49,483 bases of DNA from Rhodocyclaceae bacterium (GTDB lineage: Bacteria; Pseudomonadota; Gammaproteobacteria; Burkholderiales; Rhodocyclaceae). A model generated the notes under the pieces. That model did no database searches and had not been told where the DNA came from. It saw nothing but the letters and a program-made list of their open reading frames with translations. Below are positions 1,539 through 48,896 of the stretch, in pieces (the stretch's first letter is position 1; each line of letters opens with the position of its first letter). The translations under genes were made by a program, and so were the position numbers. Location of the stretch: contig JACDZI010000018.1 of NCBI GenBank assembly GCA_013426785.1, positions 1 through 49,483 on the forward strand. The letters are read 5' to 3'.

Positions 1539-3994
1539 CTGGAATTTTCCTGCTCCTCGGCATACCGGTGCTGGCCGTGCTGTTGCGCCTTGGGCGGTCT
1601 CGTATCCGCGAGCAGGCTGCAAACGAAAAACTGCTGGCCCAGCAGCGCCGTCTTGAAGAAAGCGAACAGCGCTTTCGTGACTACTCGACGGCATCTTCAG
1701 ACTGGTTATGGGAAATGGATGCTGATCTGCGTTTCTCGTATTTTTCCGACCGAGCGGAAATCGTGCTCGGGGTCAAGCCACAGATGCTCCTTGGCCGCCG
1801 GCGAGATGAAGTGGCCGACCTGGACGATCTCGAGCAGCGCGACAAGTGGGAGGCTCATTTCAAGACGTTGGCAGCGCATCAGGCATTCCGGAATTTCGAG
1901 TACCACGTCCGTAATGAACTTGGTGGGCGCTGGTTCAGCGTCAGCGGTGTGCCAGTCGTCGATGCGCAAAACCGGTTTTGCGGCTATCGCGGTACCGGAG
2001 CGGATATCACGCCAACAAAACATGCAGAAGCGAGTCTGCGCCGCGCGGAAGTTCTCTTGCTTTCCGCCATCAATACTATCGAAGAGCCGTTCGTCATTTA
2101 CGATCAGGATGACTGCCTCTACCTGTGTAACGAGCAATACCGGAAGGTTTACGCATCATCGACAGCCGCCATTCAAGTAGGTAATACCTTTGAAGCCATT
2201 CTTCGTTATGGCCTTGAGAACGGCCAGTATGCAGAGGCAATTGGCTGTGAGGAGGAATGGCTGGCAAGACGATTGACACAACACCATTCTGCGAACACCG
2301 ATCTCATCCAGCCATTGAATGATGGACGCTGGTTGCGCATTCTGGAGCGTCGCACGCCGGAAGGCTTCATCGTCGGATTCCGGATTGATGTCACGCTCCT
2401 GATGCAGGCCAAACAGGCGGCCGAAGCCGCCAGCATCGCCAAGAGCCGTTTTCTTGCCACCATGAGCCATGAAATTCGCACACCGATGAACGGTATCCTC
2501 GGCATGGCGCAGATGCTGCTGGTGCATGAGGTGAACGATAGCGAACGTCGGGATTTCGCCCGAACCATCCTAAACTGTGGCCAGGGCCTGCTGAATCTGC
2601 TCAACGATATCCTCGATTATTCCAAGGTCGAGGCCGGCAAACTCGAACTGGAAAAAGTGGTGTTCGATCCTCGCCAAATCGTGAGGGAGGTGCAATCGCT
2701 GTTTGCCGAATCTGCGCGCGGCAAGGGCTTGCAACTCAAGGCCGAATGGCAGGGCGAACACACCACCTATCAGGCTGATGCGCATCGGCTGCGCCAGATG
2801 CTGTTCAACCTGACCGGCAATGCCATCAAATTCACTGCCCACGGCCAGGTATGCATTGAAGCTGCCGAAATCGAACGCACCGGCAACGTCGCCCTGCTGG
2901 AATTTGCGGTTGTCGATACGGGGATGGGTATCCCCACCGAGAAGCAGGAACTGTTGTTCAAGCCATTCAGCCAGATGGACAGTTCGACTACGCGACAATT
3001 CGGCGGCACCGGTCTGGGCTTGTCGATCGTCAAAAACCTTGCCTGTTTGATGGGCGGGGATGTTGGCGTCGATAGCGAACCGGGCAAGGGTAGTCGATTC
3101 TGGTTGCGCATCCGGGCCGACGTCTATGCGGGCACCGAAAGACGGCAGCGAGGCCGGGCTACCTATATCAACCAGACGGGCGAGCAGAAATCGCCCGGTG
3201 CTCCGCCGCAATTGTGCGGCAGTTTGTTGGTGGCCGAAGACGATGCAACCAACAAGAAGGTCATCCTGGCCATGCTCGATAGCCTGGGTCTCACCGCCGT
3301 TATTGCCGATAACGGACAGCAGGCCACGGAGCGAATCGACCGTGGCGAGCGCTTCGACCTGATCCTCATGGATCTGCACATGCCGGTCATGGATGGGATT
3401 GCTGCGACCCTGCATATTCGTCAGCGCGAACGCGAACTCAGCGAGCCTCATCGCACCATCGTCGCTCTGACGGCCGATGCTTTTGCCGAGGATCGGGAGC
3501 GCTGTCTTAACGCGGGCATGGACGATTTCCTGACCAAGCCCATCGATATCGCCGCACTGTCCTCTCTGCTGCGGCATTGGTTGGCTCCGCATGTCACGTC
3601 AGAAACAGCCGGGGCAGAGGGTGGACGGTCTGCATCGGCTGCCGTCCCGCCAGCGCCGACTTTTGTCGAAGCAGCCTTGCTTGACCCCCTGGGCGACAAT
3701 CGCGAGTTGGCTCGGCTGATCATCGATTCGGCTGCGAGTGACTTCCCGATGTATTTCGACCAACTCGTGCAGGCGTGCCAGGCGGTTGACTGGATAGCTG
3801 CTGAACGGCCCGTGCATATCATGAAAGGTCTTGCCGCCCAGATCGGAGGACTGAAGCTGGCCGGCCTGATGCAAACAACGGAAGAGCGGCTCAAGCAGGG
3901 TGAGGGGCTGGATGCGGACACCCTCACTCAGCTTCAGAGAGAATATGCCTCCCTGACTGTCGCTTTGGAGCATTGGCTCGAATCGTCCTCTTGA
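1451..3994 (+). CDS. Hybrid sensor histidine kinase (PAS-PAS-HisKA-HATPase-REC-HPt)
   Basis: An 847-residue frame holding a second membrane segment (about 30-50), a PAS domain (about 75-190), a second PAS-like region (about 195-310), HisKA with phospho-acceptor His about 340 (SHEIRTPMNG), and HATPase_c with N (FNLTGNAIKFT), G1 (DTGMGIP) and G2 (GGTGLGLSIVKNL) boxes. A receiver with Asp about 641 (LILMDLHMPVMDG) follows, then an HPt domain with His about 789 (VHIMKG). This gives a complete His-Asp-His phosphorelay. A copy of the dispersed 24-bp repeat (3641-3664) encodes AVPPAPTF exactly in the REC-HPt linker. The GTG at 1451 is only the first start in this frame. The natural start is ATG 924, separated by the frameshift, so a working full-length sensor is doubtful. 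Confidence 0.85.
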   Translation: MLEQFPYYVQVAFAESEVLADRNRQAQIVTGIFLLLGIPVLAVLLRLGRSRIREQAANEKLLAQQRRLEESEQRFRDYSTASSDWLWEMDADLRFSYFSDRAEIVLGVKPQMLLGRRRDEVADLDDLEQRDKWEAHFKTLAAHQAFRNFEYHVRNELGGRWFSVSGVPVVDAQNRFCGYRGTGADITPTKHAEASLRRAEVLLLSAINTIEEPFVIYDQDDCLYLCNEQYRKVYASSTAAIQVGNTFEAILRYGLENGQYAEAIGCEEEWLARRLTQHHSANTDLIQPLNDGRWLRILERRTPEGFIVGFRIDVTLLMQAKQAAEAASIAKSRFLATMSHEIRTPMNGILGMAQMLLVHEVNDSERRDFARTILNCGQGLLNLLNDILDYSKVEAGKLELEKVVFDPRQIVREVQSLFAESARGKGLQLKAEWQGEHTTYQADAHRLRQMLFNLTGNAIKFTAHGQVCIEAAEIERTGNVALLEFAVVDTGMGIPTEKQELLFKPFSQMDSSTTRQFGGTGLGLSIVKNLACLMGGDVGVDSEPGKGSRFWLRIRADVYAGTERRQRGRATYINQTGEQKSPGAPPQLCGSLLVAEDDATNKKVILAMLDSLGLTAVIADNGQQATERIDRGERFDLILMDLHMPVMDGIAATLHIRQRERELSEPHRTIVALTADAFAEDRERCLNAGMDDFLTKPIDIAALSSLLRHWLAPHVTSETAGAEGGRSASAAVPPAPTFVEAALLDPLGDNRELARLIIDSAASDFPMYFDQLVQACQAVDWIAAERPVHIMKGLAAQIGGLKLAGLMQTTEERLKQGEGLDADTLTQLQREYASLTVALEHWLESSS
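3641..3664 (+). repeat. Dispersed 24-bp repeat, copy 1 (perfect)
   Basis: Exact consensus GCCGTCCCGCCAGCGCCGAC plus TTTT. It lies inside the hybrid kinase and is read as AVPPAPTF in the REC-HPt linker. Confidence 0.9.
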
Positions 3995-4096
3995 ATCTCG
4001 GCGCGGGGACAAGCGTCTGGCCAGCCGCCATGGATGTGCGCACCGGGTTTCTCCGGCAGGGTTCGAAAACCAGTTCGCAACAGACAACCAACCGTC

Positions 4097-5368: not shown

Positions 5369-5370
5369 CG

Positions 5371-5394
5371 AAAAGTTGGCGCTGGCGGGACGGC
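5371..5394 (-). repeat. Dispersed 24-bp repeat, copy 2
   Basis: One mismatch to consensus. It fills 24 of the 28 nt between dsbC and the glycerate kinase and removes any visible ribosome binding site for the latter. Confidence 0.9.
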
Positions 5395-5396
5395 AC

Positions 5397-6125: not shown

Positions 6126-6164
6126 GGAATCTCCAGAGATGGAATTGAATAACTGGCGCCAAGC

Positions 6165-7325: not shown

Positions 7326-7353
7326 GCCTGCATTGTGGCGTCCGACGCCGATC

Positions 7354-11494: not shown

Positions 11495-11496
11495 TC

Positions 11497-13739: not shown

Positions 13740-13749
13740 TTTGATGCAG

Positions 13750-13773
13750 AAACGTTGGCGCTGGCGGGACGGC
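13750..13773 (-). repeat. Dispersed 24-bp repeat, copy 3
   Basis: Two or three mismatches, all near the T-run end. It lies in the short gap before phoH and creates a false N-terminal extension (KRWRWRDG) in the phoH frame. Confidence 0.85.
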
Positions 13774-13788
13774 CCAACCGGAGGCGGT

Positions 13789-14745
13789 TTGAAGACCAGA
13801 AGCCTGTCCGTCGGCCTGGAGCCGCTCGACAACGCGCAGCTGGCCAACCTGTGCGGCGCACTCGACGAGAATCTGCGCCAGATCGAGATGGCCTATGACG
13901 TGACGCTGTCGCGGCGTGGCAAACACTGTCGCATCGATGGCGACCCGGCCCAGGCACGCCAGGCCGCCAACGCCCTCAAGCACTTCTATGCGCTCGCCAC
14001 CGCGCCACTATCCGTCGATGACATCCAGCTCGGCCTGGTTGAACTGCGTAGCCGTCAGCCTGCCGCAGCGACTTCGGCCGGCCTGCTGACAAAAAAGACC
14101 GATCTGCACGGGCGCACGCCGCACCAGGTCGAATACCTGCGCCAGATTCAGGAACACGACATCACCTTCGGCGTCGGCCCGGCCGGCACCGGCAAGACCT
14201 ACCTGGCCGTCGCCAGCGCCGTCGATGCCTTTGAACGCGACCAGGTGCAGCGCATCATCCTCACGCGCCCGGCGGTCGAGGCCGGTGAGCGGCTCGGCTT
14301 CCTGCCCGGCGATCTGGCGCAGAAGGTCGATCCCTACCTGCGTCCGCTCTACGACGCGCTGTACGACCTGATGGGCTTCGACAAGGTGGCCCGCCTGTTC
14401 GAAAAGCAGAACATCGAGATCGCCCCGCTCGCCTACATGCGCGGGCGCACGCTGAACCACGCCTTCATCATCCTCGACGAGGCGCAAAACACCACGCCGG
14501 AACAGATGAAAATGTTCCTGACACGCATCGGTATTGGCGCGAAGGCGGTGGTGACCGGCGACGTCACCCAGATCGACCTGCCGAAGGGGCAGAAGTCGGG
14601 GCTGATCGAGGCGCGGCGCATCCTCGCCAACGTGCGCGGGCTCGCCTTCACCGATTTCGATGCCGGCGACGTGGTCCGTCACCCCCTCGTGGCGCGCATC
14701 GTCGTAGCCTATGAAGCCAATGGTGCCAATGTCGCCAAAGCCTGA
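13789..14745 (+). CDS. ybeZ: PhoH-like ATPase (PhoL/YbeZ)
   Basis: 318 residues from TTG 13789, chosen because GGAGG (13780-13784) precedes it and [15 protein letters not shown] is a natural family start. The frame stays open to 13741, but those first codons (KRWRWRDG) are just the dispersed repeat. It has an N-terminal KH-like region, then a P-loop ATPase: Walker A GPAGTGKT (130-137), Walker [11 protein letters not shown] and a [17 protein letters not shown] motif. PhoH-like proteins act with YbeY in 16S rRNA maturation and ribosome quality control, and ybeY follows with overlap. The group phoH-ybeY-corC-lnt is conserved across proteobacteria. Confidence 0.9.
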
Positions 14746-16018: not shown

Positions 16019-17478
16019 GGCCGCTCCTGTTCGCCGTACTGCTCGGCGCCGTCAGTGTTTTCGGCTTCGCCCCCTTCGAGTGGTTTCCGCTTCCCGTTAT
16101 CGCGCTCGCCATTCTGTTCTGGCTCTGGTCGCAGGCCGGTTCGCCCTGGCGCGCCGCCGGGCTGGGCTTCGCCTACGGCTTGGGTTTCTTCCTCGTCGGC
16201 GTGTCGTGGGTCTATGTCAGCCTGCATGACGTCGGCGGCATGGACGCGCCGCTGGCCACCATCGCCACGCTGCTGTTCTGCGCCTATCTCGCGCTGTTCC
16301 CGGCGCTGGCCGGCTATCTTTATTGCCGTCTCGCCAGCGCCGACTTTTTAAGGAATACCCTGCTGTTGGCCGGACTCTGGATGTTGACCGAATGGCTGCG
16401 CGGCTGGCTGTTCAGCGGCTTCCCCTGGCTGGCGCTCGGCTACGCCCAGACGCCGCCGAGCCCGCTGGCCGGCCATGCGGCCGTGATCGGCGTTTATGGC
16501 ATCGGTTTTCTCGTCGCACTGATCGCGGCGCTTGCCGCACTCGACTGGCGACGCAAGGCCGGCTGGGCCGTCATCGTCGCGCTGCTGGCCAGTGGCAACC
16601 TGTTACGCAACATGGACTGGACGCAGCCGGCCGGCAAGCCGCTGCAGGTCAGCCTCCTGCAAGGCAACATCGCTCAAAGCCTGAAATGGGAACCGAGCCT
16701 GCTGTTGTTGTCGATCGATACCTACACGCGCCTGGCGCAGCAACATCCCGCCGCGCTGACCGTGCTGCCGGAAACCGCCATCCCGCTGTTCTTCGACCAG
16801 TTGCCGCGCGAGACGCTGACTGCGCTGACGCAACAGGGCGACCTGCTGCTGGGCATGGCGGTGCAGCATCGCGACGGCGGCTACGTGAATGGCGCGCTCG
16901 CCATCGCCAAGGACGCCGTCCTGCCAGCGCCGACTATTCAGAGTTACGCCAAGCGCCACCTGGTCCCCTTCGGCGAATTCGTTCCACCGGGGTTTTCCTG
17001 GTTTTTCGACCTTGTGCATATCCCCATGTCGAACTTTTCCGCCGGCCCGGCCGGGCAGCCGCCGCTGGCGATTGCCGGCCAGCAGATTGCGCCCAACATC
17101 TGCTACGAAGATCTGTTCGGTGAAGAACTGCTCGCAGCGCTGCCGCAGGCCACGCTGTTGATCAATCTGTCCAACACCGCCTGGTTCGGCGATTCGCTCG
17201 CCCAGCCGCAGCATTTGCAGATCGCCCGCATGCGCGCGCTGGAAACCGGCCGCATGATGCTGCGCGCCACCAATACCGGCATCACGGCCGCCATCGCACC
17301 CGATGGTCGCGTGCTCGGCCGCTTGCCGCCCTTCACCGCTGGCGCCTTGCGTATCGAGGCGCAAGGCTTTGCCGGATCGACACCCTATGCGCGCTGGGGC
17401 AACGCGCTGGCCCTGCTGCTGGCGATTGGTGCCGTTTTGCCTGCGTTCTTGGCGGCTTATCGGCGACGAAGCCGTTAA
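16015..17478 (+). CDS. lnt: Apolipoprotein N-acyltransferase Lnt
   Basis: 487 residues. Several membrane segments cover about 1-200, then a periplasmic nitrilase domain, then a final membrane segment (about 460-480). The catalytic triad is visible: Glu in VLPETAIPLFF, Lys in YAKRHLVPFGE and Cys in APNICYEDLFGEE. Lnt transfers a third acyl chain to the N-terminal Cys of lipoproteins in the inner membrane. The gene carries two copies of the dispersed repeat, at 16325-16348 (encoding CRLASADF, in a membrane loop) and 16915-16938 (encoding AVLPAPTI, just before the catalytic-Lys strand). Both keep the frame. Confidence 0.93.
   Translation: MRPLLFAVLLGAVSVFGFAPFEWFPLPVIALAILFWLWSQAGSPWRAAGLGFAYGLGFFLVGVSWVYVSLHDVGGMDAPLATIATLLFCAYLALFPALAGYLYCRLASADFLRNTLLLAGLWMLTEWLRGWLFSGFPWLALGYAQTPPSPLAGHAAVIGVYGIGFLVALIAALAALDWRRKAGWAVIVALLASGNLLRNMDWTQPAGKPLQVSLLQGNIAQSLKWEPSLLLLSIDTYTRLAQQHPAALTVLPETAIPLFFDQLPRETLTALTQQGDLLLGMAVQHRDGGYVNGALAIAKDAVLPAPTIQSYAKRHLVPFGEFVPPGFSWFFDLVHIPMSNFSAGPAGQPPLAIAGQQIAPNICYEDLFGEELLAALPQATLLINLSNTAWFGDSLAQPQHLQIARMRALETGRMMLRATNTGITAAIAPDGRVLGRLPPFTAGALRIEAQGFAGSTPYARWGNALALLLAIGAVLPAFLAAYRRRSR
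16325..16348 (+). repeat. Dispersed 24-bp repeat, copy 4
   Basis: One mismatch. Inside lnt, read as CRLASADF in a loop between membrane segments. Confidence 0.88.
16915..16938 (+). repeat. Dispersed 24-bp repeat, copy 5
   Basis: Two mismatches. Second copy inside lnt, read as AVLPAPTI, just before the strand with the catalytic Lys. Confidence 0.85.
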
Positions 17479-19595: not shown

Positions 19596-21679
19596 AAAAT
19601 CTATTGATTGAACTCTTTGTCGAAGAACTGCCGCCCAAGGCACTGAGGAAGCTTGGCGAATCATTTGCTAATGACCTTACAGCCCAACTACGTCGGCTTG
19701 ATTATCTAGAGTCGGATAGTGTTACAACTCCTTACGCTTCGCCGCGACGGCTTGCCACTCATATCAGTGGAGTGCGTGAGAGATGTCCAGACGTTCCAGT
19801 TCGAAAGAAACTTATCCCTGCTGACATCGCATTTGATCGGCAAGGCCAGCCTTCAGCCGCACTGAGAAAACGCCTTGATAAAGAGGATGCCACGCTAAAG
19901 GATGCAACAAGAGCGTTCGAGGACGGCAAGGAGTTCGTGTTTCTTGAGCGAGTCGCACCGGGAAGAGAGTTGGCTTTTGTTCTCGAAGCTGTGGTGCTTG
20001 CCGGGTTGTCGAATCTGCCGATTCCCAAGGTGATGACCTACCAACTCGCCGATGGCTGGACCAGCGTGAACTTCGTGCGCCCGGCGCACAAGCTTGTTGC
20101 GCTATACGGCAGCGATATCGTGCCGATCGGCGTACTTGGCCTCACCGCTGGCCGCGAAACGCATGGCCACCGCTTCGAGGCCGCCAACCCGATTGTCTCG
20201 ATCCGCGACGCCGATTCCTACGCCGAGCAGTTGCTAACCGAAGGCGCGGTGATCGCCAGCTTTGCCGCACGGCGTGCCGAGATAGAGAAGCAGATCAAGG
20301 CGGCGGCTGCGAAAGAAGGCCTGCAGCCGATCGACGACGACGCTCTGCTCGACGAGGTGACTGCACTGGTCGAGCGACCGAACGTTCTGACCTGCCAGTT
20401 CGAGCCGGAATTCCTCGACGTGCCGCAGGAATGCCTGATCCTGACGATGAAGGCCAACCAGAAGTATTTTCCGCTGCTCAAGGACGGCAAGCTGACCAAC
20501 AAGTTCCTCGTCGTCAGCAACATCAACCCTGCCGACCCTTCTGCCGTCATTCAGGGCAACGAGCGCGTGGTGCGCCCGCGGCTGGCCGATGCCAAGTTCT
20601 TCTTCGACCAGGACCGCAAGAAGTCGCTGGCCGACCGCATTCCGGGGCTGGCGAAAGTCGTTTATCACAACAAGCTCGGCACCCAGGGCGAACGCGCCCA
20701 GCGTGTCGCCGCGCTGGCCTCTTCCATCGGCATGCAGCTTGGCGGCGAAGCTCTTGCGCGCCAGGCTGACCAGGCGGCGCTACTCTCGAAGGCCGACCTG
20801 CTGACCGACATGGTCGGCGAGTTCCCCGAGTTGCAAGGCATCATGGGCCGCTACTACGCGCTGCACGACGGCCTGCCGCAGGAAATCGCCGACGCGATCG
20901 AAGATCACTACAAGCCACGCTTCGCCGGCGACACGCTGCCGCGCGGCCAGGTCGGCGCTTGCGTCGCGCTCGCCGACAAGCTGGAGACGCTGGCTGGCAT
21001 GTTCGGCATCGGCCAGTTGCCGACCGGCGACAAGGACCCCTTCGCGCTGCGCCGCCATGCATTGGGTTTGATGCGCATGCTGGTCGAGCGTGATCTCGAT
21101 CTTTCGCTCCATGATCTGATCAATCTTGCCTTTGCCGCATTCCCGCAAGGCCTTGTTGGTCAAGCGCACACTGATTTATCGATATTTATTTTTGAGCGCT
21201 TTGCCGGTTGGCTACGAGAGCAGGGTTATTCCGCGCAGGAAGTGGATGCAGTTATATCGCTCAATCCTGTTCGCCTGAATCTTGTACCCAAACGCCTCGC
21301 CGCAGTGCGCGTCTTCGTCGCGCTGCCGGAAGCCGCCAGCCTCGCCGCTGCCAACAAGCGCGTCGGCAACATCCTCAAGAAAGTCGGCACTGGCGTGACG
21401 GCGCAGGTGAACATTGCCCTACTCATCGAGCCGGCCGAGGTGGGACTTAATGCTGCGCTGGCTCAGGTAAAGCCGCAAGCCGACGCCGCCTTCGCACGCG
21501 GCGACTACACGGAGTCGCTGTCTTCGCTCGCCGCGCTTAAGACGCCGGTCGACAGCTTCTTCGACCAGGTCATGGTCAATGCCGAGGAACCGGCGCTGCG
21601 CCAAAATCGGCTTGGCTTGTTGGCCACCCTGCACCAGGCGATGAATCGCGTCGCCGACCTTTCCAAGCTAAGCACATGA
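19592..21679 (+). CDS. glyS: Glycine-tRNA ligase beta subunit
   Basis: About 695 residues from ATG 19592 (MKNLLIELFVEELPPKAL, the family start). Blocks YASPRRLATHI, MKANQKYFPLL, GEFPELQGIMGRYYA and the C-terminal anticodon-binding-like region are visible. The 5' part (to about 19990) and an inner stretch at 21120-21300 have clearly lower GC than the rest (19681-19740 about 45%, 21181-21240 about 47%, 20041-20100 about 63%), which suggests a recombination mosaic. A dispersed-repeat copy at 21379-21402 encodes KVGTGVTA directly after NKRVGNILK. The stop overlaps gmhB (ATGA). Confidence 0.93.
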   Translation: MKNLLIELFVEELPPKALRKLGESFANDLTAQLRRLDYLESDSVTTPYASPRRLATHISGVRERCPDVPVRKKLIPADIAFDRQGQPSAALRKRLDKEDATLKDATRAFEDGKEFVFLERVAPGRELAFVLEAVVLAGLSNLPIPKVMTYQLADGWTSVNFVRPAHKLVALYGSDIVPIGVLGLTAGRETHGHRFEAANPIVSIRDADSYAEQLLTEGAVIASFAARRAEIEKQIKAAAAKEGLQPIDDDALLDEVTALVERPNVLTCQFEPEFLDVPQECLILTMKANQKYFPLLKDGKLTNKFLVVSNINPADPSAVIQGNERVVRPRLADAKFFFDQDRKKSLADRIPGLAKVVYHNKLGTQGERAQRVAALASSIGMQLGGEALARQADQAALLSKADLLTDMVGEFPELQGIMGRYYALHDGLPQEIADAIEDHYKPRFAGDTLPRGQVGACVALADKLETLAGMFGIGQLPTGDKDPFALRRHALGLMRMLVERDLDLSLHDLINLAFAAFPQGLVGQAHTDLSIFIFERFAGWLREQGYSAQEVDAVISLNPVRLNLVPKRLAAVRVFVALPEAASLAAANKRVGNILKKVGTGVTAQVNIALLIEPAEVGLNAALAQVKPQADAAFARGDYTESLSSLAALKTPVDSFFDQVMVNAEEPALRQNRLGLLATLHQAMNRVADLSKLST
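21379..21402 (-). repeat. Dispersed 24-bp repeat, copy 6
   Basis: Three mismatches. Inside glyS in antisense orientation, read as KVGTGVTA. Confidence 0.75.
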
Positions 21680-22209
21680 AACTGATCATCCTCGACCGCG
21701 ACGGCGTCATCAACCACGACTCCGACCTCTACATCAAGTCGCCGGAGGAATGGACGCCGATTCCCGGCAGCCTGGAGGCGATCGCGCGGCTCAACCAGTG
21801 GGGCTGGCGCGTCATCGTGTGCACCAACCAGTCGGGCATCGGCCGCGGCCTGTTCGGCATGGACATGCTCAATGCCATCCACGACAAGATGCTCAAGGCT
21901 GCGGCGCATGCCGGCGGAGCCATCGACGCCATCTTCTTCTGCCCCCATACCAATGTCGATGCGTGCGCCTGCCGCAAGCCCAAGCCCGGCATGCTGCAGG
22001 AAATCGCGACGCGCTACAACGTCAGCCTGACCGGTGTGCCGGTCATTGGCGACAGCCTGCGCGACCTGGAGTCCGCCCTCGCGGTAGGGGCGCAACCGAT
22101 GCTGGTGCTGACCGGCAAGGGCATGAAGACCCGGCTCGACCCGGCCCTGCCGGCCGGCATCCCCGTATTCCAGAATCTCGCTGCCGCCGTCAAATCGCTC
22201 ACGGCATGA
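21676..22209 (+). CDS. gmhB: D-glycero-beta-D-manno-heptose-1,7-bisphosphate 7-phosphatase
   Basis: 177-residue HAD-family phosphatase. The nucleophile motif LDRDGVIN lies at 6-13, CTNQSGIGRG (motif II) near 51-60, the zinc-binding loop with CPHTN and CACRKPKPGML near 93-110, and GDSLRDLESA (motif IV). It removes the 7-phosphate in ADP-heptose synthesis for the lipopolysaccharide core. The gene sits in a glyS-gmhB-plsC overlap chain, starting at the glyS stop and ending in the plsC start. Confidence 0.92.
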   Translation: MKLIILDRDGVINHDSDLYIKSPEEWTPIPGSLEAIARLNQWGWRVIVCTNQSGIGRGLFGMDMLNAIHDKMLKAAAHAGGAIDAIFFCPHTNVDACACRKPKPGMLQEIATRYNVSLTGVPVIGDSLRDLESALAVGAQPMLVLTGKGMKTRLDPALPAGIPVFQNLAAAVKSLTA

Positions 22210-22961
22210 ACTTCCTCCGCTCCGCCCTGTACATGCTGGCGATGGCGATCACCACGCCGCTGATCGTGCTGGCGCTGCTGTGCGTGTTCTGGCTGCCGTC
22301 CCGCCAGCGCCGACTTTTCGTGATGCCCTGGGTACGGCTGGTGATGTGGCTGATCCGCCACGTGCTCGGTATCGAGCATCTTGTCGTCGGCGCGGAAAAC
22401 ATCCCGGACCAGCCCTGCGTGATCCTGTGCAAGCACCAGTCGGCCTGGGAGACCTTCGCCCTGCAGGTGATCTTCCCGCTCACCTCATTCGTTTACAAAC
22501 GCGAGCTGCACTGGCTGCCCTTCTTCGGCTGGGGCATCAAGCTGATGCCTTTTGTCGCCATCGACCGCGCCCAGGGTAAGGCGGCGCTGAAACAGGTCGT
22601 GGAGCGCGGCCAACAACGGCTGGACGAGGGCTACCACGTGGTGATCTTTCCCGAAGGCACGCGCCTGCCGCCGGGCGCGCAGCGGGAATTCAAGATCGGC
22701 GGCGCCTGGCTAGCGGCGGCGACGAACGCACCGGTGGTGCCGGTCGCGCTCGATTCCGGCGAATGCTGGCCGCGCAATTCTTTCCTCAAGACCCCGGGCA
22801 TCGTGACCGTCAGCATCGGTCCCGCGATCGACCCGGCCGGCCGGAAAATCTCTCAGGTCAACACAGCGGCCGAAGAATGGATCGCGGCCGAAATGCGCCG
22901 CATCAGCCCGCATCGTTATCGCCATGAAGGCGAGAACACCGCAACTGTCGCTGCGGCTTGA
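22206..22961 (+). CDS. plsC: 1-acyl-sn-glycerol-3-phosphate acyltransferase (PlsC family)
   Basis: 251 residues from ATG 22206, overlapping gmhB by ATGA; a longer open frame upstream is a shadow. A membrane segment at about 7-28 precedes the PlsC domain with KHQSAWET (HX4D variant with His followed by E/T spacing), FVAIDR, IFPEGTRLPPG and VPVALDSGECW. It makes phosphatidic acid from lysophosphatidic acid at the inner membrane. A perfect copy of the dispersed repeat (22295-22318) encodes LPSRQRRLF right after the first membrane segment, adding basic residues at the cytoplasmic face. Confidence 0.88.
   Translation: MNFLRSALYMLAMAITTPLIVLALLCVFWLPSRQRRLFVMPWVRLVMWLIRHVLGIEHLVVGAENIPDQPCVILCKHQSAWETFALQVIFPLTSFVYKRELHWLPFFGWGIKLMPFVAIDRAQGKAALKQVVERGQQRLDEGYHVVIFPEGTRLPPGAQREFKIGGAWLAAATNAPVVPVALDSGECWPRNSFLKTPGIVTVSIGPAIDPAGRKISQVNTAAEEWIAAEMRRISPHRYRHEGENTATVAAA
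22295..22318 (+). repeat. Dispersed 24-bp repeat, copy 7 (perfect)
   Basis: Exact consensus, inside plsC, read as PSRQRRLF after the first membrane segment. Confidence 0.9.
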
Positions 22962-32333: not shown

Positions 32334-33350
32334 ATGCGCGTGCTCGGCATCGAAACCTCCTGCGACGAAACCGGCCTGGCCCTGTACGACACGTCGCGGG
32401 GCCTGCTGGCCCATGCCGTGCATTCGCAGGTGGCGATGCACGAGGATTACGGCGGCGTCGTGCCGGAACTGGCCTCGCGCGACCACATCCTGCGACTCGC
32501 CCCGCTATTGCAGAAAGTTCTCGCGGACGCCGCAGTGTCGCAGGAAAGCATTGATGCCATTGCCTACACCGCAGGACCGGGGCTGGCCGGGGCGCTGCTG
32601 ACCGGCGCCAGCTTTGCGTCGGGACTGGCGCTGGCGCTCGGCATTCCCGCCCTGCCGATCCACCATCTCGAAGGCCATTTGCTGTCGCCGCTGTTATCGA
32701 AAGACCTGGCGCGCTTCCCTTTCATCGCCTTGCTGGTTTCCGGCGGCCACACGCAGATCATGGCCGTGACGCAAGTGGGCGCTTACGCGCTGCTGGGCGA
32801 ATCGCTCGACGACGCGGCCGGGGAGGCCTTCGACAAGACGGCGCAATTGCTGGGCCTCGGCTATCCCGGCGGGCCGGCGCTGGCGAAACTGGCGGAAACC
32901 GGTATGCCGGGACGCTTCAAGTTGCCGCGGCCGATGCTGAACAGCGGCGATTTCATGTTCAGCTTTTCCGGACTCAAGACCGCCGTACTGACGGCTGCAC
33001 GTGAGCACACGCTCTCGGCGCAGGACAAGGCCGACCTCGCCGCCGAATTCCAGGAAGCGGCGACGGAAGTGCTGGCTGCCAAGTCGCTGGCGGCGTGCCG
33101 CCAGCGCCGACTTTCCACACTGGTAGTGGCCGGGGGGGTCGGGGCGAACCGGCGACTACGCGAACGGCTCGACAGTGCGGCGGCGAAGCAGGGCGTGCGG
33201 GTCTGTTATCCGGAACTGGAACTGTGCACCGACAATGGCGCGATGATCGCCTTCGCAGCCGCGCAACGCCTGCTGGCGGGAAAAGCGGAAGCTCCAAATA
33301 AAGAGGGCGCGTTCGCCGTCAGGCCACGCTGGCCGCTGGCAACTGCTTAA
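32334..33350 (+). CDS. tsaD: tRNA N6-threonylcarbamoyladenosine synthase subunit TsaD
   Basis: 338 residues. Iron-binding His111 and His115 lie in IHHLEGH. The ASKHA-fold blocks [46 protein letters not shown] and [12 protein letters not shown] are present. It transfers the threonylcarbamoyl group to A37 of ANN-decoding tRNAs with TsaB, TsaE and TsaC. A copy of the dispersed repeat (33092-33115, three mismatches) encodes CRQRRLST just before the [13 protein letters not shown] strand. Its TAA and the plsY stop share the palindrome CTTAAG. Confidence 0.95.
33092..33115 (+). repeat. Dispersed 24-bp repeat, copy 9
   Basis: Three mismatches, with a perfect central core. Inside tsaD, read as CRQRRLS. 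Confidence 0.8.
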
Positions 33351-33955
33351 GTTTTCTTCTTGCTGCCGATCCTGCCTTCGGTGCCGGCCAGCAGCCGCTT
33401 GATGTTGGCGGTGTGGCGCCAGACCAGCAGCAGGCACATCATCAGCACCATCTGGGTCGAAGCCACCGCGCCATGCAGCCAGAACGCCAGCGCCGGTGCG
33501 GCAGCGGTCGCCACCAGCGCCGCCAGCGACGAGTAGCGGGTCACGAATGCCGTCGCCAGCCAGACGAGCAGTGCGCCCAGGGCCAGCCAGCCGTCCAGGC
33601 CCAACAGCACGCCGACGGCGGTCGCCACGCCCTTGCCGCCCTTGAACTTGAGGAACACGGGGAACAGGTGACCGAGGAAAGCGGCCAGTCCCGTTAATGC
33701 AATCGCCGTGCTGCCAGCGCCAAGTTTTGCGGCGGCGAACATGGCGAGCCAGCCCTTGGCTGCATCGCCCAGTAGGGTCAGTATCGCCGCCGCCTTGTTG
33801 CCGGTGCGTAGTACGTTGGTCGCCCCGGGATTGCCGGAGCCGAAACTGCGCGGGTCGGCGAGGCCGAAGGCCTTCGAGACGATCACCGCGAAGGGCAGTG
33901 AGCCGATCAGGTAACCGAGGATCAGGTAAATCAGCAGGGAAGTTGGGGTTTCCAT
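33347..33955 (-). CDS. plsY: Glycerol-3-phosphate acyltransferase PlsY
   Basis: 202 residues from ATG 33955 ([15 protein letters not shown]), an integral membrane protein with about five spans. PlsY motifs are [27 protein letters not shown] and [21 protein letters not shown]. It uses acyl-phosphate to acylate glycerol-3-phosphate, the first step of phospholipid synthesis with PlsX. A weak match to the dispersed repeat (33704-33727, four mismatches) encodes KLGAGSTA between membrane segments. It is convergent with tsaD (4-nt overlap) and divergent from folB. Confidence 0.93.
33704..33727 (+). repeat. Dispersed 24-bp repeat, copy 10 (weak)
   Basis: Four mismatches. Inside plsY, antisense to the gene, read as KLGAGSTA, the same frame as KVGAGGTA elsewhere. 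Confidence 0.5.
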
Positions 33956-34385: not shown

Positions 34386-34700
34386 ATGTTTTCCAATAGA
34401 GAAACTACTGATGCCCTCGTTTCCCTCGGGGAACGCCTGCGTCAGGCGCGGATTGCCAAAGGCGATAGCCAGACCGTGTTCGCCCGACGCCTCGGCATTT
34501 CGGTGCCGACGCTACGCGATCTCGAACAAGGCAACCCGCGGGTAAGCGCGGGCATCTGGGTGGCGGCGTTGTGGGCGCTCTCGCGCCTGACGGAGCTGGA
34601 CAATCTCCTGCTACCGCAGGAAAGCCTCTTCGAACAGTTTGCCCGCCGACCCGCCGCGCGGCAGCGTGCCCCCCGCCGGAGCAAGGCTTCCGCGTCATGA
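34386..34700 (+). CDS. hipB: HipB-type antitoxin/XRE repressor
   Basis: 104 residues from ATG 34386. A helix-turn-helix of the Cro/CI type spans about 12-60: LGERLRQARIAKGDSQTVFARRLGISVPTLRDLEQGNP. The basic tail (ARRPAARQRAPRRSKASAS) may contact DNA or HipA. It overlaps hipA by ATGA, the normal antitoxin-first order. The palindrome at 34355-34368 is the probable autoregulatory site. Confidence 0.85.
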   Translation: MFSNRETTDALVSLGERLRQARIAKGDSQTVFARRLGISVPTLRDLEQGNPRVSAGIWVAALWALSRLTELDNLLLPQESLFEQFARRPAARQRAPRRSKASAS

Positions 34701-35911
34701 ATCATCTGCATGTCTGGCTGACGCTGACGGGCGGCGAAACCGCAGCCCTCGGCGAACTGGTGTTCGGACCACCACGCACAAACGGCACCGCCCCCACGGC
34801 ATTCCGCTACGCCCCGACATGGCTGGCGCGGCCGGACGCTTTTGCGCTCAACCCCGACCCGCAATCCCTGTCGCTCGACGGCCGCGAATTCCCGGCCAGC
34901 CATCTTGGCCCGCCCTTGCAGGTGATTGACGACGCCCTGCCGGACGACTGGGGGCGCCGCCTGATCATTGCCGAACAGAAACTGCCGATGGCGCGGCAAA
35001 CGCCCTACGAGATCATGCGCGCCGTAGCCGGCAACGGGCTGGGGGCGCTGTCTTTTTCGGAACGCAGACAGCCGCCGCCGCGCCCCGATGACCAGTTCGA
35101 CCTTACGGAACTGATGCAGGCTGCCGCCGATTTCGAGGCAGGTCGCCCGCTGGAAGATGCCCGCCTGCAGCGTCTGTGCGCCGCGGGTGGCAGCCCCGGC
35201 GGTGCCCGGCCAAAGGCGCGCATTGCCTGGCAGCAGCAATCATGGATCGCTAAGTTTCCCAGCCAGGCAGGCGACAGCGGTCACGATGTGGTGGGGCTGG
35301 AGGCCGTCTGCCTCACGCTGGCAGCCCGGGCCGGACTCGCGGTACCGGCGATTCGCCTCGTTGATCTTGGCTCACGCCGTGTGTTGCTGGTGCTGCGTTT
35401 CGACATCTCGCCCCAGGGTGGCCGGCACCACATGATTACCCTGAAAACCCTCTGCCGCGAAGGGGCCGGCCTTTATGCGCTTTCCTACGATGTGCCGGCC
35501 GAGGCCATCCGTAAATACAGCGATGATCCTGAGGACATCGAGCGCTTCTTCCGTCAGATGGCTTTCAATGCCGCCATCGGCAATACCGACGATCACCTGA
35601 AAAACTTCCTGCTGCTGCACGGTGAGCGCGGCTGGCGGCTTTCGCCCGCCTTCGATCTGGTTCCCGACCTCGGCCGCAACCGCGAACACACGCTCGCCAT
35701 CGGTCATTCGCGCGAAACACCGGGGCGGGATGATCTCGTCGCCGTCGGCCAGCGCTGGCTGGGCAATGCTACGCAGGCGAGACTGATCGTGCAGGAGGTC
35801 GTCGACGCCGTGAGCAGCTTTGAAGCCACCGCGAAACAACTGGCCGTTGCGCCCGACAGCATGGCCTTCTTTGCGGCCGATATCGCCAGGCGGATCAAAC
35901 GGCTGGCGTGA
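34697..35911 (+). CDS. hipA: HipA-type serine/threonine kinase toxin
   Basis: 404 residues from ATG 34697. The N-terminal Couple_hipA-like domain (about 1-105) is followed by the kinase: a GGSPGGARPKA P-loop-like motif, SWIAKFPSQ with the ATP-binding Lys, the catalytic loop AFNAAIGNTDDHLKNFLLL and the Mg-binding LSPAFDLVPD. All key residues are present, so it appears active. HipA toxins phosphorylate an aminoacyl-tRNA synthetase (GltX in E. coli) and induce dormancy; the target here is unknown. A dispersed-repeat copy lies 9 nt after the stop. Confidence 0.88.
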   Translation: MNHLHVWLTLTGGETAALGELVFGPPRTNGTAPTAFRYAPTWLARPDAFALNPDPQSLSLDGREFPASHLGPPLQVIDDALPDDWGRRLIIAEQKLPMARQTPYEIMRAVAGNGLGALSFSERRQPPPRPDDQFDLTELMQAAADFEAGRPLEDARLQRLCAAGGSPGGARPKARIAWQQQSWIAKFPSQAGDSGHDVVGLEAVCLTLAARAGLAVPAIRLVDLGSRRVLLVLRFDISPQGGRHHMITLKTLCREGAGLYALSYDVPAEAIRKYSDDPEDIERFFRQMAFNAAIGNTDDHLKNFLLLHGERGWRLSPAFDLVPDLGRNREHTLAIGHSRETPGRDDLVAVGQRWLGNATQARLIVQEVVDAVSSFEATAKQLAVAPDSMAFFAADIARRIKRLA

Positions 35912-35920: not shown

Positions 35921-35944
35921 GAAAGTCGGCGTTGGCAGGACGGC
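35921..35944 (-). repeat. Dispersed 24-bp repeat, copy 11
   Basis: Three mismatches. Intergenic, between the hipA stop and the end of the XRE gene. Confidence 0.85.
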
Positions 35945-36253: not shown

Positions 36254-38371
36254 TTGGCCGTGCACAACTCTCCAGAACACAACTTTCATCCACGCTATCG
36301 TCCTGATATCGACGGCTTGCGTGCGCTCGCCATCCTGCCGGTGGTGGCTTTTCATGCCTTCCCACGCTATGCCCCGGGCGGCTTCATCGGCGTGGATATC
36401 TTTTTTGTCATTTCCGGCTATCTGATTTCGCTGATCATCTTCCGCAGTCTGGCGCGAGGGGACTTCAGTTTCGCCGAGTTCTATGCCCATCGCGTGCGCC
36501 GTATCTTTCCCGCACTCATCGTGGTACTGGCCGCCTGTTATGCCATCGGCTGGTTTGTGCTGCTGCCGGACGAATTCATGCTGCTCGGCAAGCACATCGC
36601 CGCCGGCGCGGGTTTCGTTCAGAACTTTGCCCTGCAAGGTGAAACCGGCTATTTCGACGTTGCTTCGGAACTCAAGCCGCTCCTGCATCTATGGTCGCTG
36701 GCGGTGGAGGAGCAATACTATCTGGGCTTCCCGCTGTTCGTCTGGCTGTTCTGGCGCAAGGGTCTCAATGTCCTCACCGGCGTGGCGCTGATCGCCATCG
36801 TCTCATTTCTCCTTTCCCGCAAGGGCGTCCATGCCGACATGGTGAAAGCGTTTTACTGGCCACAGTCACGATTCTGGGAACTGATGGCCGGTGCCCTGCT
36901 CGCCTACGTGGAAGTCTTCAAGGCCTGGCCCGACCTCCTAACGCGGTTCTTGCACTGGGCAGTGTTCAACCGGCTCATCTTTCGGCACATACCCGAATCG
37001 CCCCACCAGCCGCTAATTCTGCGCAATCTGGCCGCCAGTTTCGGTCTGGTGCTGATCCTTGCCAGCATCGCCACCTACAACGCAAACATGCCCTGGCCGG
37101 GCAGTCGCGCCTTGGCACCGGTGGTTGGTGCCGTTCTGCTCATCGCGGCTGGCCCACAAGCATGGATCAACCGCCGTTTTCTCGCGATGAAACCGCTGGT
37201 CTGGGTTGGTCTGATCAGCTACCCACTCTATCTGTGGCATTGGCCGCTGCTGTCATTTCTGCGCATCATCGAAAGCGGCTTGCCGGCGCGCGAATGGCGT
37301 ATTGCGGCGGTAGCGCTCAGTTTCGTGCTCGCAACCCTGACCTATTGGCTGGTCGAACGGCCGGTTCGCTACGGCACCAAGCGGGTCTGGAAGAATGCGG
37401 CCTTTTGCTTGGCGCTGCTTGTGGTCGGGTATGTGGGCTTCAATGCTTACGAGAGGAATGGGTTGGAGTTTCGGGTCAAGGAAGCTGTGCGACGGAATGC
37501 CATGTTCAGCGCCAAAAACACGCCATGGCTACCAGAAAATCAGGACGAGCGTTGCAAGCAGGGTTTTCCACCACGAATTGATGCTGGATATTGCCGTTTG
37601 GCAAAGGATGGGGATCCAACTGTCCAGTTGATCGGGGATTCCCATGCCGTGTCGCTCTACCCAGGCATGCGGGACATTCTGCAAACCACACCAGAAAACG
37701 TTTTCCAGTTAGGTTATGGTGGCTGCGTGCCATTTTTTGAGGTGACCAGTTTCGACCGGAATACCGATGGGCCGGGCCACCACCATTGCAGGACCATCAC
37801 CAATCAAGCATTGAGTATCGCCGAAACCAGCAGGACGATCCACACGGTAGTCCTTGTTTCCCGTGGCCCCCTTTACCTTTCAGGAAAAGGCTTTTTCCCC
37901 GATGATTATGGGGATGAAAAAGGGCATGATCGACTGCTGCAATCAGCCTCTCACCCTGAACTTGAAGACCACTACCAGATATGGGAAACGGCGATGCGAG
38001 AAACAATCGACCGCCTGCTCGCGAAAGGCAAACGGATCGTATTCGTCCTCGACAACCCGGAGTTGGGGTTTGATCCAAAATCCTGCGTAGATTCGCGCCC
38101 ATGGCGCTTGACTAGCCGGGTACGTCAGCCTTGTGCAGTGCCGCGTAACGATTTTGACGAACGAAACCAGAGGTACCAGGAACTTGTTGCCGCTGTGCTG
38201 AAAGACTATCCGGCAGTCAAGGTGTTCGATGCCGCTGCACAGCTATGCGACAAGCAGTGGTGCTGGGCAATTTCAGATGGGCAGATGCTCTACCGAGACG
38301 ACGATCACTTGTCTCTTGACGGTGCCCGATTGATGGCGCGAGGCTTGGCCAAGCTTCTTGCCATACAGTAA
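36254..38371 (+). CDS. OafA/YrhL-type acyltransferase with C-terminal SGNH domain
   Basis: 705 residues from TTG 36254; GTG 36260 is an alternative. The N-terminal Acyl_transf_3 domain (about 15-350) has ten or so membrane segments, with RPDIDGLRALAILPVVAFHAF, FIGVDIFFVISGYLI, FYAHRVRRIFPAL and LHLWSLAVEEQYY. The C-terminal half is a periplasmic SGNH-like domain with GDSHAVSLYPGM (nucleophile Ser) and a late DDDHLSLDGARLMA block carrying the catalytic Asp/His. Such proteins O-acetylate lipopolysaccharide O-antigen or other surface sugars. A dispersed repeat starts directly after its stop. Confidence 0.88.
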   Translation: MAVHNSPEHNFHPRYRPDIDGLRALAILPVVAFHAFPRYAPGGFIGVDIFFVISGYLISLIIFRSLARGDFSFAEFYAHRVRRIFPALIVVLAACYAIGWFVLLPDEFMLLGKHIAAGAGFVQNFALQGETGYFDVASELKPLLHLWSLAVEEQYYLGFPLFVWLFWRKGLNVLTGVALIAIVSFLLSRKGVHADMVKAFYWPQSRFWELMAGALLAYVEVFKAWPDLLTRFLHWAVFNRLIFRHIPESPHQPLILRNLAASFGLVLILASIATYNANMPWPGSRALAPVVGAVLLIAAGPQAWINRRFLAMKPLVWVGLISYPLYLWHWPLLSFLRIIESGLPAREWRIAAVALSFVLATLTYWLVERPVRYGTKRVWKNAAFCLALLVVGYVGFNAYERNGLEFRVKEAVRRNAMFSAKNTPWLPENQDERCKQGFPPRIDAGYCRLAKDGDPTVQLIGDSHAVSLYPGMRDILQTTPENVFQLGYGGCVPFFEVTSFDRNTDGPGHHHCRTITNQALSIAETSRTIHTVVLVSRGPLYLSGKGFFPDDYGDEKGHDRLLQSASHPELEDHYQIWETAMRETIDRLLAKGKRIVFVLDNPELGFDPKSCVDSRPWRLTSRVRQPCAVPRNDFDERNQRYQELVAAVLKDYPAVKVFDAAAQLCDKQWCWAISDGQMLYRDDDHLSLDGARLMARGLAKLLAIQ

Positions 38372-38394
38372 AAAGTCGGCGCTGGCAGTACGGC
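38371..38394 (-). repeat. Dispersed 24-bp repeat, copy 12
   Basis: Two mismatches. It begins at the last base of the acyltransferase stop codon, so the stop and the repeat share an A. Confidence 0.88.
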
Positions 38395-39579: not shown

Positions 39580-40506
39580 CTAACCTCTTGGATGGTGGTT
39601 CGCGTGAAGTTCTTTCAGTCGTGCGCGGGCAACGTGAGTGTAAACCTGCGTGGTCGAGATGTCGCTATGGCCCAGCAGCAATTGCACCACGCGCAGGTCG
39701 GCGCCGTGGTTGAGCAGGTGCGTGGCGAAGGCGTGGCGCAACACGTGCGGTGAAATGCGCTCGGCCGGAATGCCGGCGGTCAGCGCGTGCTTCTTGATCA
39801 GCGTCCAGGCCATCTGGCGCGTCATGCCGGTTCCTGCTGCATTGGCCCGGCCGGTGACGAAGACGAAATCGGATGTCTTCCCCTTGAGCACGGCCAGCCG
39901 GCCTTCCCTGATCCAGCGCAGCAGCCAGTCGGCCGCAATCTCGCCCAGCGGCACCAGACGTTCCTTGCCCCCCTTGCCGAAGGTGCGCACCACGCGATCA
40001 TCGAAACTGACAGAAAACAGTTTCAGGCCGACCAGTTCGGAAACACGCAGGCCGGTGGCGTAAAGCAATTCAAGCATGGCGCGGTCGCGCAGACCGAGGG
40101 GTGTATTGACGTCCGGTGCGGCGAGCAGATCCTCGACATTCTGTTCCGACAGGGTTTTCGGAAAGCGCTCTGAAGCAACCGGTGCCTGGATGTTGAGCAG
40201 AGGGTTGGCGGTAATGCGGCCCTGCTCGATCAGCCAGCCGTAGAAGCGCCGCAGCGTCGCCTGCAGCCGGCGCAGAGTGTTCGGCCGGGCGCGTTGGGCG
40301 CGAGCATGCAGATGAGCGAGATAGCCGTCGATTTCCACCTCGCCGGCAGCGGTGAGACCCGGCCGGTGTTCGGCCAGCCAGAGCGAAAACAGCGACAGAT
40401 CGGAACGGTAGGCGGCCAGCGTGTTCTTGGCCAGTCCATCGGCCAGCCAGAGCGCGTCGATGAACTCGTCGATGAGTTGTTGCTCAGACGCCGGTAGCGG
40501 CCTCAT
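39580..40506 (-). CDS. xerD: Tyrosine site-specific recombinase XerD
   Basis: 308 residues. The N-terminal SAM-like domain (about 5-95) starts with IDEFIDALWLADGLAKNTLAAYRSDL, and the catalytic domain follows. Arg in ATGLRVSEL, Lys in GKGGKERLVPLG, the HVLRHAFATHLL box, the GHSDISTTQVYTHV box and the nucleophile Tyr are all visible. With XerC it resolves chromosome dimers at dif. No dif-like site was recognised in this window. It overlaps the ogt gene (40484) by 23 nt. Confidence 0.92.
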   Translation of the reverse strand: MRPLPASEQQLIDEFIDALWLADGLAKNTLAAYRSDLSLFSLWLAEHRPGLTAAGEVEIDGYLAHLHARAQRARPNTLRRLQATLRRFYGWLIEQGRITANPLLNIQAPVASERFPKTLSEQNVEDLLAAPDVNTPLGLRDRAMLELLYATGLRVSELVGLKLFSVSFDDRVVRTFGKGGKERLVPLGEIAADWLLRWIREGRLAVLKGKTSDFVFVTGRANAAGTGMTRQMAWTLIKKHALTAGIPAERISPHVLRHAFATHLLNHGADLRVVQLLLGHSDISTTQVYTHVARARLKELHANHHPRG

Positions 40507-40978: not shown

Positions 40979-42231
40979 GACCTCACCTCGCCGTTGCCGA
41001 ACACGATCCACTTCTGCGACGTCAGGCCTTCCAGCCCGACCGGGCCGCGCGCGTGGAACTTGTCGGTGGAAATGCCGATTTCGGCGCCCAGACCGAATTC
41101 GAAGCCATCGGCGAAACGCGTCGAGGCATTGACCATCACGCTGGCCGAATCGACTTCGCGCAGGAAGCGCAGCGCCCGGGTGTAGTCCTCGGTGACGATG
41201 GTTTCGGTGTGCGACGAAGAGTATTTATTGATGTGGGCGATGGCTTGATCAACATCGGCGACGATCTTGCAGGAGATGATCGCGGCGAGGTATTCGGTGT
41301 AATAGTCTTCCTCGGTCGCTGCCTTGGCCTGTGGCACCAGCGCCTGCGTCTCCGCGCAGCCGCGTATTTCCACGCCTTTCGCCATCAACATGGCGCATAA
41401 AGTCGGCGCCAGCGAGACGGCGACCGGTCGGGCGATTAATAGCGATTCGGCGGTATTGCAGGTGCCGAGCCGCTGCGTCTTGGCGTTTTCGAGGATCTTC
41501 TTCGCTTTGGCCGGGTCGGCGGAGTCGTCGATATAGACGTGGCAATTTCCGTCGAGGTGCTTGATGACCGGCACCTTCGCCTCGCGGCTGATGCGCTCGA
41601 TCAGTCCCTTGCCACCGCGCGGCACGATCACATCCACGTATTCCGGCATGGCGACCAGATGGCCGACGACGGCACGGTCGGTGGTCTCGATCACCTGCAC
41701 CGCCGTCTCCGGTAGACCCGCTGCGGCCAGCCCCTTGCGCACGCTGGCGGCGATGGCCTGATTGCAGCGTATTGCCTCCTTGCCGCCGCGCAGGATCGCC
41801 GCATTGCCCGACTTGAGGCACAGCGCCGCGGCGTCGGCGGTGACGTTGGGGCGCGCCTCGTAAATGATGCCGACCACGCCGAGCGGCACGCGCATCCTGC
41901 CGACTTGGATGCCGCTGGGCCGGTATTTCATGTCGGCGATTTCACCAATCGGGTCGGGCAGGGTCGCCACCTGTTCGAGACCTTGCGCCATCGATTCGAC
42001 GCCCTTGGCACTGAGGGTCAGGCGATCAAGCAGCGCCGGTTCCAGGCCGTTGGCGCGGGCCTCGGCCACATCGGCGGCATTGGCGGCGAGCAGTTCGGCG
42101 CTGCGGGCACGGATGTCGGCTGCCGTGACCCGCAGCGCGGCGTTCTTCTGCGCAGTGCTGGCACGCGCCGTCGCGCGCGAAGCCTCGCGTGCCGCCCGCC
42201 CGAGAGCTTCCATGGTGCTCTTGATATCCAT
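40975..42231 (-). CDS. proA: Gamma-glutamyl phosphate reductase
   Basis: 418 residues, full family length. Blocks: [71 protein letters not shown], a [14 protein letters not shown] segment with the catalytic Cys, and the end [41 protein letters not shown]. It makes glutamate-5-semialdehyde for proline synthesis. A weak dispersed-repeat match (41398-41421, four mismatches) encodes AVSLAPTL and may be chance. It follows holA with a 9-nt gap. Confidence 0.95.
41398..41421 (-). repeat. Dispersed 24-bp repeat, copy 13 (weak)
   Basis: Four mismatches, two of them in the core. Inside proA, read as AVSLAPTL. May be chance. Confidence 0.35.
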
Positions 42232-43125: not shown

Positions 43126-43133
43126 GGCCAGCC

Positions 43134-43634: not shown

Positions 43635-43648
43635 GGGCTTCCCTTTCC

Positions 43649-46625
<2,977 letters not shown>

Positions 46626-46643
46626 GAACGGCTCCTTGAGGGT

Positions 46644-46662
46644 AGCGCAATTTTGTTGCGCT
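46644..46662. promoter_or_regulatory. Inverted repeat in the divergent uvrD/hypothetical promoter
   Basis: AGCGCAA (46644-46650) and TTGCGCT (46656-46662) are perfect inverted copies around TTTTG. A second, overlapping symmetry GTTGC/GCAAC follows. Placement between divergent genes and close to the hypothetical start suggests an operator. Similarity to PhaR-type sites is by eye only. Confidence 0.5.
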
Positions 46663-46748
46663 GCAACATTAGACCATGAGATCGGGCTGGTTCGTAAAAG
46701 TTCAATAGCCAGCGTGTAGACTGCGCTTTTCCATGAAAACCTAAGCCA

Positions 46749-48896
<2,148 letters not shown>

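Follow-up and report, generated by a model that had tools for sequence, protein, structure and literature searches.

Background

Sequence-specific DNA uptake is, according to a 2025 paper (PMC12616744), known only in the Neisseriaceae and the Pasteurellaceae, whose motifs are 9-12 nt long and contain a CTG or GCGG inner core. That length describes the two known families and is not required for function. How such words come to be scattered through genes has been considered for both: the uptake signal sequences (USS) of the Pasteurellaceae are reported not to be insertions, on the strength of the same gapless-homologue test that is applied below (Redfield et al. 2006, PMC1626085), and many of the DNA uptake sequences (DUS) of the Neisseriaceae are argued to come by recombination, in permissive core regions (Treangen et al. 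2008, PMC2397512). For five uptake-sequence genomes, PMC2346458 gives 47-70% of copies as coding, as against 84-89% coding sequence.

The subject of this paper is a word dispersed over the window (the whole stretch of DNA that was analysed, 49,483 nucleotides) and over the genome from which the window comes (G000; 3.24 Mb in 241 contigs). A sequence-only reading had taken it for an element inserted in frame within genes and had likened it to the Rickettsia palindromic elements, which are in-gene, in-frame, palindromic insertions of more than 100 nt. It is argued here that the repeat is very probably a DNA uptake sequence: a tag marking self DNA, which a type IV pilin would recognise and biased transformation would propagate. 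It does not match the format of the known uptake words (9-12 nt, CTG or GCGG inner core): it is 24-25 nt long.

The repeat unit

Alignment of 110 copies from 428 kb of the window's genome defines the full unit as Y-GCCGTCCCGCCAGCGCCGAC-TTTT, about 25 bp and non-palindromic. Its edges are sharp: conservation drops to background on either side, with no conserved flank, and the least constrained part of the core is positions 6-8. Column information totals about 39 bits, a value that is inflated because the aligned copies were picked by similarity.

The 20-mer core is matched 14 times in the window at up to three mismatches, where 100 dinucleotide shuffles lead one to expect 0.02 matches, and the 24-mer is present in 15 copies at up to four mismatches (8 plus, 7 minus; Table 1), the two at 3641 and 22295 being perfect. 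The whole assembly holds 741 copies of the 20-mer (364 forward, 377 reverse); the reversed-motif control yields six matches (5 + 1). What had been read from the letters alone is borne out in these respects: the repeat is real, lies on both strands, comes in two perfect and about 13 imperfect copies of the 24-mer, and is not clearly palindromic. About eleven copies had been assigned to coding sequence, and the recount likewise places 11 of the 15 in genes recognised by Pfam.

Table 1. Copies of the repeat in the window, followed by three other window features. Mismatches are counted over 24 positions; G005 and G036 are genomes that lack the repeat.
Position	Strand	Mismatches	Location	Homologues and remarks
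3641..3664	+	0	3' of receiver domain, hybrid histidine kinase (ORF 1451-3994; Pfam)	
5371..5394	-	1	Intergenic, between DsbC-like gene and DUF4147/MOFRL gene	
13750..13773	-	2	Predicted N-terminus of PhoH-like ORF 13741-14745 (Pfam)	
16325..16348	+	1	Lnt	3/4 motif-free homologues gapless
16915..16938	+	2	Lnt	8/9 motif-free homologues shorter by at least 6 aa (length gain)
21379..21402	-	3	GlyS	Motif-free homologues: 37/86 gapless, 0 lacking at least 6 aa
22295..22318	+	0	PlsC (22206-22961), encodes PSRQRRLF	Motif-free homologues: 59/82 gapless, 0 lacking at least 6 aa
23177..23200	-	1	Between plsC and YgjP-like domain, reading frame uncertain	Motif at this place also in 20 other genome/locus ids (some possibly one genome under two ids)
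33092..33115	+	3	TsaD	Sole motif-free homologue (G005) gapless
33705..33728	+	4 (weak)	Minus-strand PlsY-like gene	
35921..35944	-	3	Intergenic, directly 3' of stop of HipA-like ORF	
38371..38394	-	2	Overlaps end of acyltransferase/SGNH ORF	
41398..41421	-	4 (weak)	Aldedh-family gene	G005 and G036 homologues gapless
43758..43781	+	2	Minus-strand LeuS	G005 and G036 homologues gapless
48684..48707	+	3	C-terminal part of UvrD	Sole motif-free homologue (G005) 7 aa shorter
25224-26663	-		Guanylate/adenylate cyclase catalytic-domain protein	C-terminal hemerythrin-like match weak, below Pfam cut-off
34571-35911			HipA-like kinase ORF	
39580-40506			ORF of phage-integrase family	Presumably XerC/D-like

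Distribution and dialects

Among 61 genomes searched at up to two mismatches, the window's genome and 17 of the 18 other members of its genus carry 149-658 copies. The remaining congener, G005 (87% complete), has zero copies in that search despite its ComEC and its ComP-family pilin; tag loss and misplacement in the genus are both possible explanations. Neither 67 kb of G317 nor 158 kb of G005 yielded an outstanding dispersed candidate for another dialect.

In a sample of the family (297 genomes, 68 genera), GCCGTNNCGCCAGCNCCGACT at up to one mismatch reaches 150 or more copies in 36 genomes. They belong to genera g1 (10 of 12 genomes, including the window's), g2 (11 of 12), g9 (1 of 1), g62 (1 of 1), g70 (4 of 4) and g88 (9 of 9); each of the remaining genomes has at most 41 copies. 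A seventh carrier genus, g69, has a variant word. With the words searched, the repeat is found to be limited to seven of the 68 sampled genera of one family, the Rhodocyclaceae, the GCCGTNNCGCCAGCNCCGACT pattern being one that would miss variants in further genera. All 386 genomes outside the family in a sample of the order (399 genomes) have at most five copies.

One scan of 80 loci supplied the named relatives; the genomes of 40 of these loci were searched. The carriers among them, with 268-585 copies, are the Rhodocyclaceae metagenome-assembled genomes (MAGs) E6_metabat.bin.36, C10_concoct.bin.23, UBA5602 and GS19, a Sulfuritalea sp. MAG, a Rhodocyclales MAG and an uncultured beta proteobacterium; Rhodocyclaceae MAG UBA2250 shows only 41 copies with the GCCGTNNCGCCAGCNCCGACT-type pattern because it has a dialect of its own. 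The records searched for Thauera, Azoarcus, Denitromonas, Propionivibrio, Azonexus, Dechloromonas and Nitrosomonas have 0-3 copies.

Some low-count genomes (G377, G424, G047 and others; G137, G208) hold 1-18 copies, scattered or clustered and in part exact. These strays are possibly DNA from carriers, or binning errors, and the word could serve to trace transfers into such genomes. The exact 23-mer is also found in viral DNA: 40 contigs of a collection of 2.9 million hold 42 copies, and the reversed control is in none. The non-carrier G036 has an over-represented word of another kind, GTATAGCTGTTGCC with its complement (L107, L152-L156): its 11-mers occur 11-16 times in 120 kb, with 0.15-0.28 expected, and it may be a tandem array.

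Lineage dialects of the repeat exist, one of them inside the window's genus. Congener G016 has 430 copies genome-wide of the word GCCGCC(C/T)CGCC(A/G)GCGCCGAGTTT, of which the window's genome has 10; none of ten other genomes searched has more than 39. G126, of genus g69, has T at position 16 (130 matches, 39 exact), and does so in every one of its places among the matches listed. The one mismatch allowed in the T16 search lets in the C16 word, so that 266 matches are also returned for the window's genome and as many as 188 for other carriers. G026 favours A at position 15 (62% of 47 copies); in G019, positions 6 and 7 are free and the T-tract is weaker (48 copies); G002, G017 and G003 have T at position 0 and C at position 24 (samples of 6-9 copies).

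Placement and orientation

Placement was followed in 483,003 bp of the window's genome (15% of the assembly), allowing up to four mismatches of 24. The 122 copies in this sample (30, 44, 24, 18 and 6 at 0 to 4 mismatches) are divided between the strands 64 plus to 58 minus; the reversed motif gives none. There is an excess between genes: 40 copies are intergenic where 17.6 are expected, 8 are partly in genes (3.6 expected) and 74 are fully in genes (100.8 expected). Genes were called with a crude home-made gene finder that misses at least PlsC, so that the coding share is a low estimate. Within genes, positions lean toward the ends (8, 7, 4, 5, 6, 5, 6, 11, 9 and 13 copies in successive deciles). 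Copies are on average 3.5 kb apart and are spaced more regularly than by chance: the coefficient of variation is 0.78 vs 0.98 simulated, a value as low being reached in 0.36% of 5,000 simulations, while gaps of less than 1 kb (20 vs 26.7 simulated) differ non-significantly (6% of simulations).

The sequence-only reading had found all six frames of the word open and at least four in use. In the sampled genome all six are used, very unequally: the 74 coding copies encode KVGAGGTA (26), AVPPAPTF (18), RPASADF (14), KSALAGR (10), PSRQRRLF (4) and KSRRWRDG (2), the bulky or charged peptides being the rare ones.

Hundreds of spread copies under strong sequence constraint would also be expected of a site that serves chromosome organisation: KOPS, Chi, matS, or a Noc- or SlmA-type binding site. 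We consider this very improbable. Orientation alternates within single contigs (as it does in the 49 kb of the window), so that the repeat is not replichore-polarised; the lack of Chi- or KOPS-like polarity that had been remarked on for the window extends to the 483 kb, and polar motifs of the KOPS/Chi kind are ruled out by the mixed orientation. Dimeric repressor-type sites are usually palindromic, which this unit is not, and the repeat is rare or absent in most of the related genera.

In the sampled DNA, the two stretches that run longest without a copy are contig starts of about 53% GC (C76, 1-28,621; C118, 1-22,260). The shape of the C76 stretch suggested a prophage, an idea that was given up: of its ten scanned proteins, three have matches among elongation-factor or RNA-polymerase families, and none of the remaining seven has a PHROGs match. 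It is presumably a ribosomal-type (elongation-factor/rpoB) operon, and strong protein constraint would fit the absence of copies. The C118 stretch is a 22-kb low-GC island of surface-polysaccharide genes, where Pfam matches nine of ten proteins; recent acquisition would fit its having zero copies, but this is a single case. Inverted pairs are few: only two among the 122 copies, 54-58 nt apart. They look like terminators. The one that was folded, on C14, lies 3' of a predicted gene end; it has a U-run, and its folding energy is -65.4 kcal/mol (z -10.9).

Origin of the copies

Are the copies inserted or made in place? The 75 coding sites (PlsC added by hand) were searched against sampled DNA of relatives. 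A homologue spans the site in 24 cases, and the 20 of these with a motif-free homologue are testable. The nearest motif-free homologue is gapless at 14 of the 20 (at 8 of which it is the single homologue), shows smaller gaps at four, and lacks at least six residues at two (Lnt 16915 and UvrD 48684). When all motif-free homologues are pooled, 116 of 205 are gapless and nine lack at least six residues. PlsC is an example: the protein reads WLPSRQRRLF with the copy and WLPLRSRRLL in G017, which has no copy there, the RR-containing stretch being native. In the PlsC of G017 and G002, congeners that are copy-free at this site and carry the repeat elsewhere, the sequence is WLPLRSRRLL or WLPPRSRRLL. 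The gapless homologues and the native RR stretch of PlsC together indicate that most copies were made in place by substitution. The repeat is not generally an insertion: substitution is its origin at most sites, not all.

The Lnt loop at 16915-16938 is a hotspot: the congeners G003, G012 and G007 have longer, variable insertions there (loci L065, L056 and L070), which include motif-like stretches.

The view from which this work started, of an element inserting in frame, is thus ruled out as the general origin by the gapless homologues and kept for two sites; the analogy with Rickettsia palindromic elements goes unsupported, since sites are mostly gapless and the gain at Lnt 16915 amounts to 6 aa, or 18 nt, instead of 24 nt. 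In a broader form of the same proposal, the in-frame insertions would come from a mini-element, mobile or copied, such as an RPE-like or REP/RAYT-like unit or a retro-copied repeat. Hundreds of near-identical copies, the length gains in Lnt and UvrD, the Lnt expansions of the three congeners and one Y1_Tnp (RAYT family) gene in the window's genome speak for it; in addition to the gapless sites, the graded mismatches, the absence of a conserved flank, the non-palindromic unit and a word that itself changes base lineage-wide speak against it and make it very improbable. RAYT in particular is judged unlikely: the window's genome has one Y1_Tnp gene, but none was found in 9 of the 14 carrier genomes searched. 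The last proposal, a by-product of codon or peptide bias (VGAGGTA or VPPAP favoured in linkers, two peptides accounting for 44 of the 74 coding copies), has a negligible chance and is ruled out by 20 synonymous-codon shuffles, which keep all the proteins and leave 6-13 in-gene copies, far below the 74 observed, quite apart from the use of all six frames and the excess between genes.

Transformation machinery and a candidate receptor

The search took in ComEC, the ComP_DUS-family pilin and minor pilins. ComEC is present in the window's genome and in 17 of its 18 congeners, the miss being G018 (83% complete). The Pfam model for the ComP_DUS-family pilin finds a match in 53 of the 61 genomes, non-carriers included, and none in the carriers G012 and G015 (76% and 83% complete), and has been dropped as a carrier marker. 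Since ComEC and the ComP-family pilin are also found in non-carriers, G005 among them, they do not discriminate, and are necessary at most for carrying the tag.

In the window's genome the ComP-family pilin heads a PilE-FimT-PilV-PilW operon (names assigned from gene order and sequence), and is the candidate receptor because it is the only basic protein of the operon's four (pI 8.5). Charge does not by itself single out the receptor: FimT is basic in carrier G009 and slightly so in carrier G019, and a second basic pilin of the window's genome, PilA-like and with a pI of 9.4, lies outside the operon. Pilin charge also fails as a carrier marker: the pI is 7.7-9.3 in the carriers examined, but the pilin is basic in the non-carriers G005 and G036 as well. 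A PDB search with the ComP-family pilin returned type IV pilins and two chance matches, none of the 22 entries being named ComP. One perfect copy of the repeat (L115:9336-9359, contig C171) falls where a pilin-like protein, which starts MDRLNAVPPAPTFQERGFTL, has its leader peptide.

A proposed self-DNA tag

An uptake sequence fits, as no rival does as well, a word that is non-palindromic, lies on both strands, is evenly spaced, has mostly arisen by substitution and is in excess between genes; it is also favoured by the dialects, the narrow distribution and the transformation genes that are present. The scheme that can be proposed is the following: 1) In natural transformation the word of about 25 bp in free DNA would be bound by a receptor on the cell surface, for which the basic ComP-family minor pilin that heads the PilE-FimT-PilV-PilW operon is the likeliest protein. 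2) The type IV pilus and ComEC would preferentially pull in tagged (that is, self) DNA, which would then be recombined. 3) Tagged alleles would be taken up more often, so that copies would accumulate, mainly by point mutation, building up where protein or spacer tolerates them. 4) Recombination would repair copies back to consensus, keeping hundreds per genome on both strands. 5) A change in the receptor would shift the favoured word and give rise to lineage dialects. The mechanism of spreading, which the sequence-only reading had left open, is accordingly best read as biased uptake combined with homologous recombination; both uptake as the selective or "drive" force and the identity of the receptor protein are what we infer.

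A more far-reaching proposal is likely, if less assured: that this is a third, independently evolved system of self-DNA recognition, in which a 25-bp Rhodocyclaceae word spanning two helical turns (GCCGT, a free spacer, GCCAGCGCCGAC and a T-tract) would be read in two halves by a ComP-type pilin or by two pilin subunits, with genus-splitting dialects as isolation barriers. A full-text search of the open-access literature (subscription papers and preprints lying outside it) found no paper with the core words or with Rhodocyclaceae uptake sequences, and broader literature searches found no Rhodocyclaceae uptake-sequence paper among the matches listed.

If the proposal is true, there is a third family with sequence-specific uptake, with a motif twice as long, and such uptake evolves repeatedly, here in carriers that are mostly environmental MAGs. 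It would provide an independent receptor-motif pair for tests of coevolution, natural dialect pairs within one genus for testing species isolation by uptake tags, and a tag for tracing DNA donated by carriers; it would also predict that largely uncultured bacteria are naturally transformable.

Comparison with known systems

With the Rickettsia palindromic elements the repeat shares only the presence of in-frame repeat units inside genes; it differs in being short, non-palindromic and mostly derived by substitution.

The likeness to the DUS of the Neisseriaceae, which are read by the minor pilin ComP, goes further. DUS also come in many copies on both strands and have lineage dialects, as described by Frye et al. 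(2013, PMC3630211); they are stated to be missing from recently acquired genes (PMC2397512), which may be set beside the one copy-free polysaccharide island here, and to serve as terminators when in inverted pairs (PMC12616744), of which one was folded here. The differences are in size and number: DUS are 12 nt long vs 24-25 nt here, and are given as almost 1,500 copies for Neisseria (PMC2346458), with numbers reaching 5,918 for Kingella oralis (PMC3630211); the present word has fewer, about 150-740. DUS ATGCCGTCTGAA, as quoted in PMC5031613, and the repeat both contain GCCGTC and are otherwise unlike; the overlap may be chance, and it is broken in the G016 dialect (GCCGCC).

The USS of the Pasteurellaceae belong to another family, and their receptor is, in PMC12616744, only predicted (ComN/PpdA). 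Their core, AAGTGCGGT, is 9-10 nt long and is followed, further downstream, by AT-rich regions; the present word is one continuous block of 25 bp. As in the uptake-sequence genomes already mentioned, the majority of copies of the present repeat are coding and there is an intergenic excess (74 of 122 fully coding, vs 84%). And, like the present word, USS lie on both strands, arise by substitution (PMC1626085) and have a T- or AT-rich stretch beside the core.
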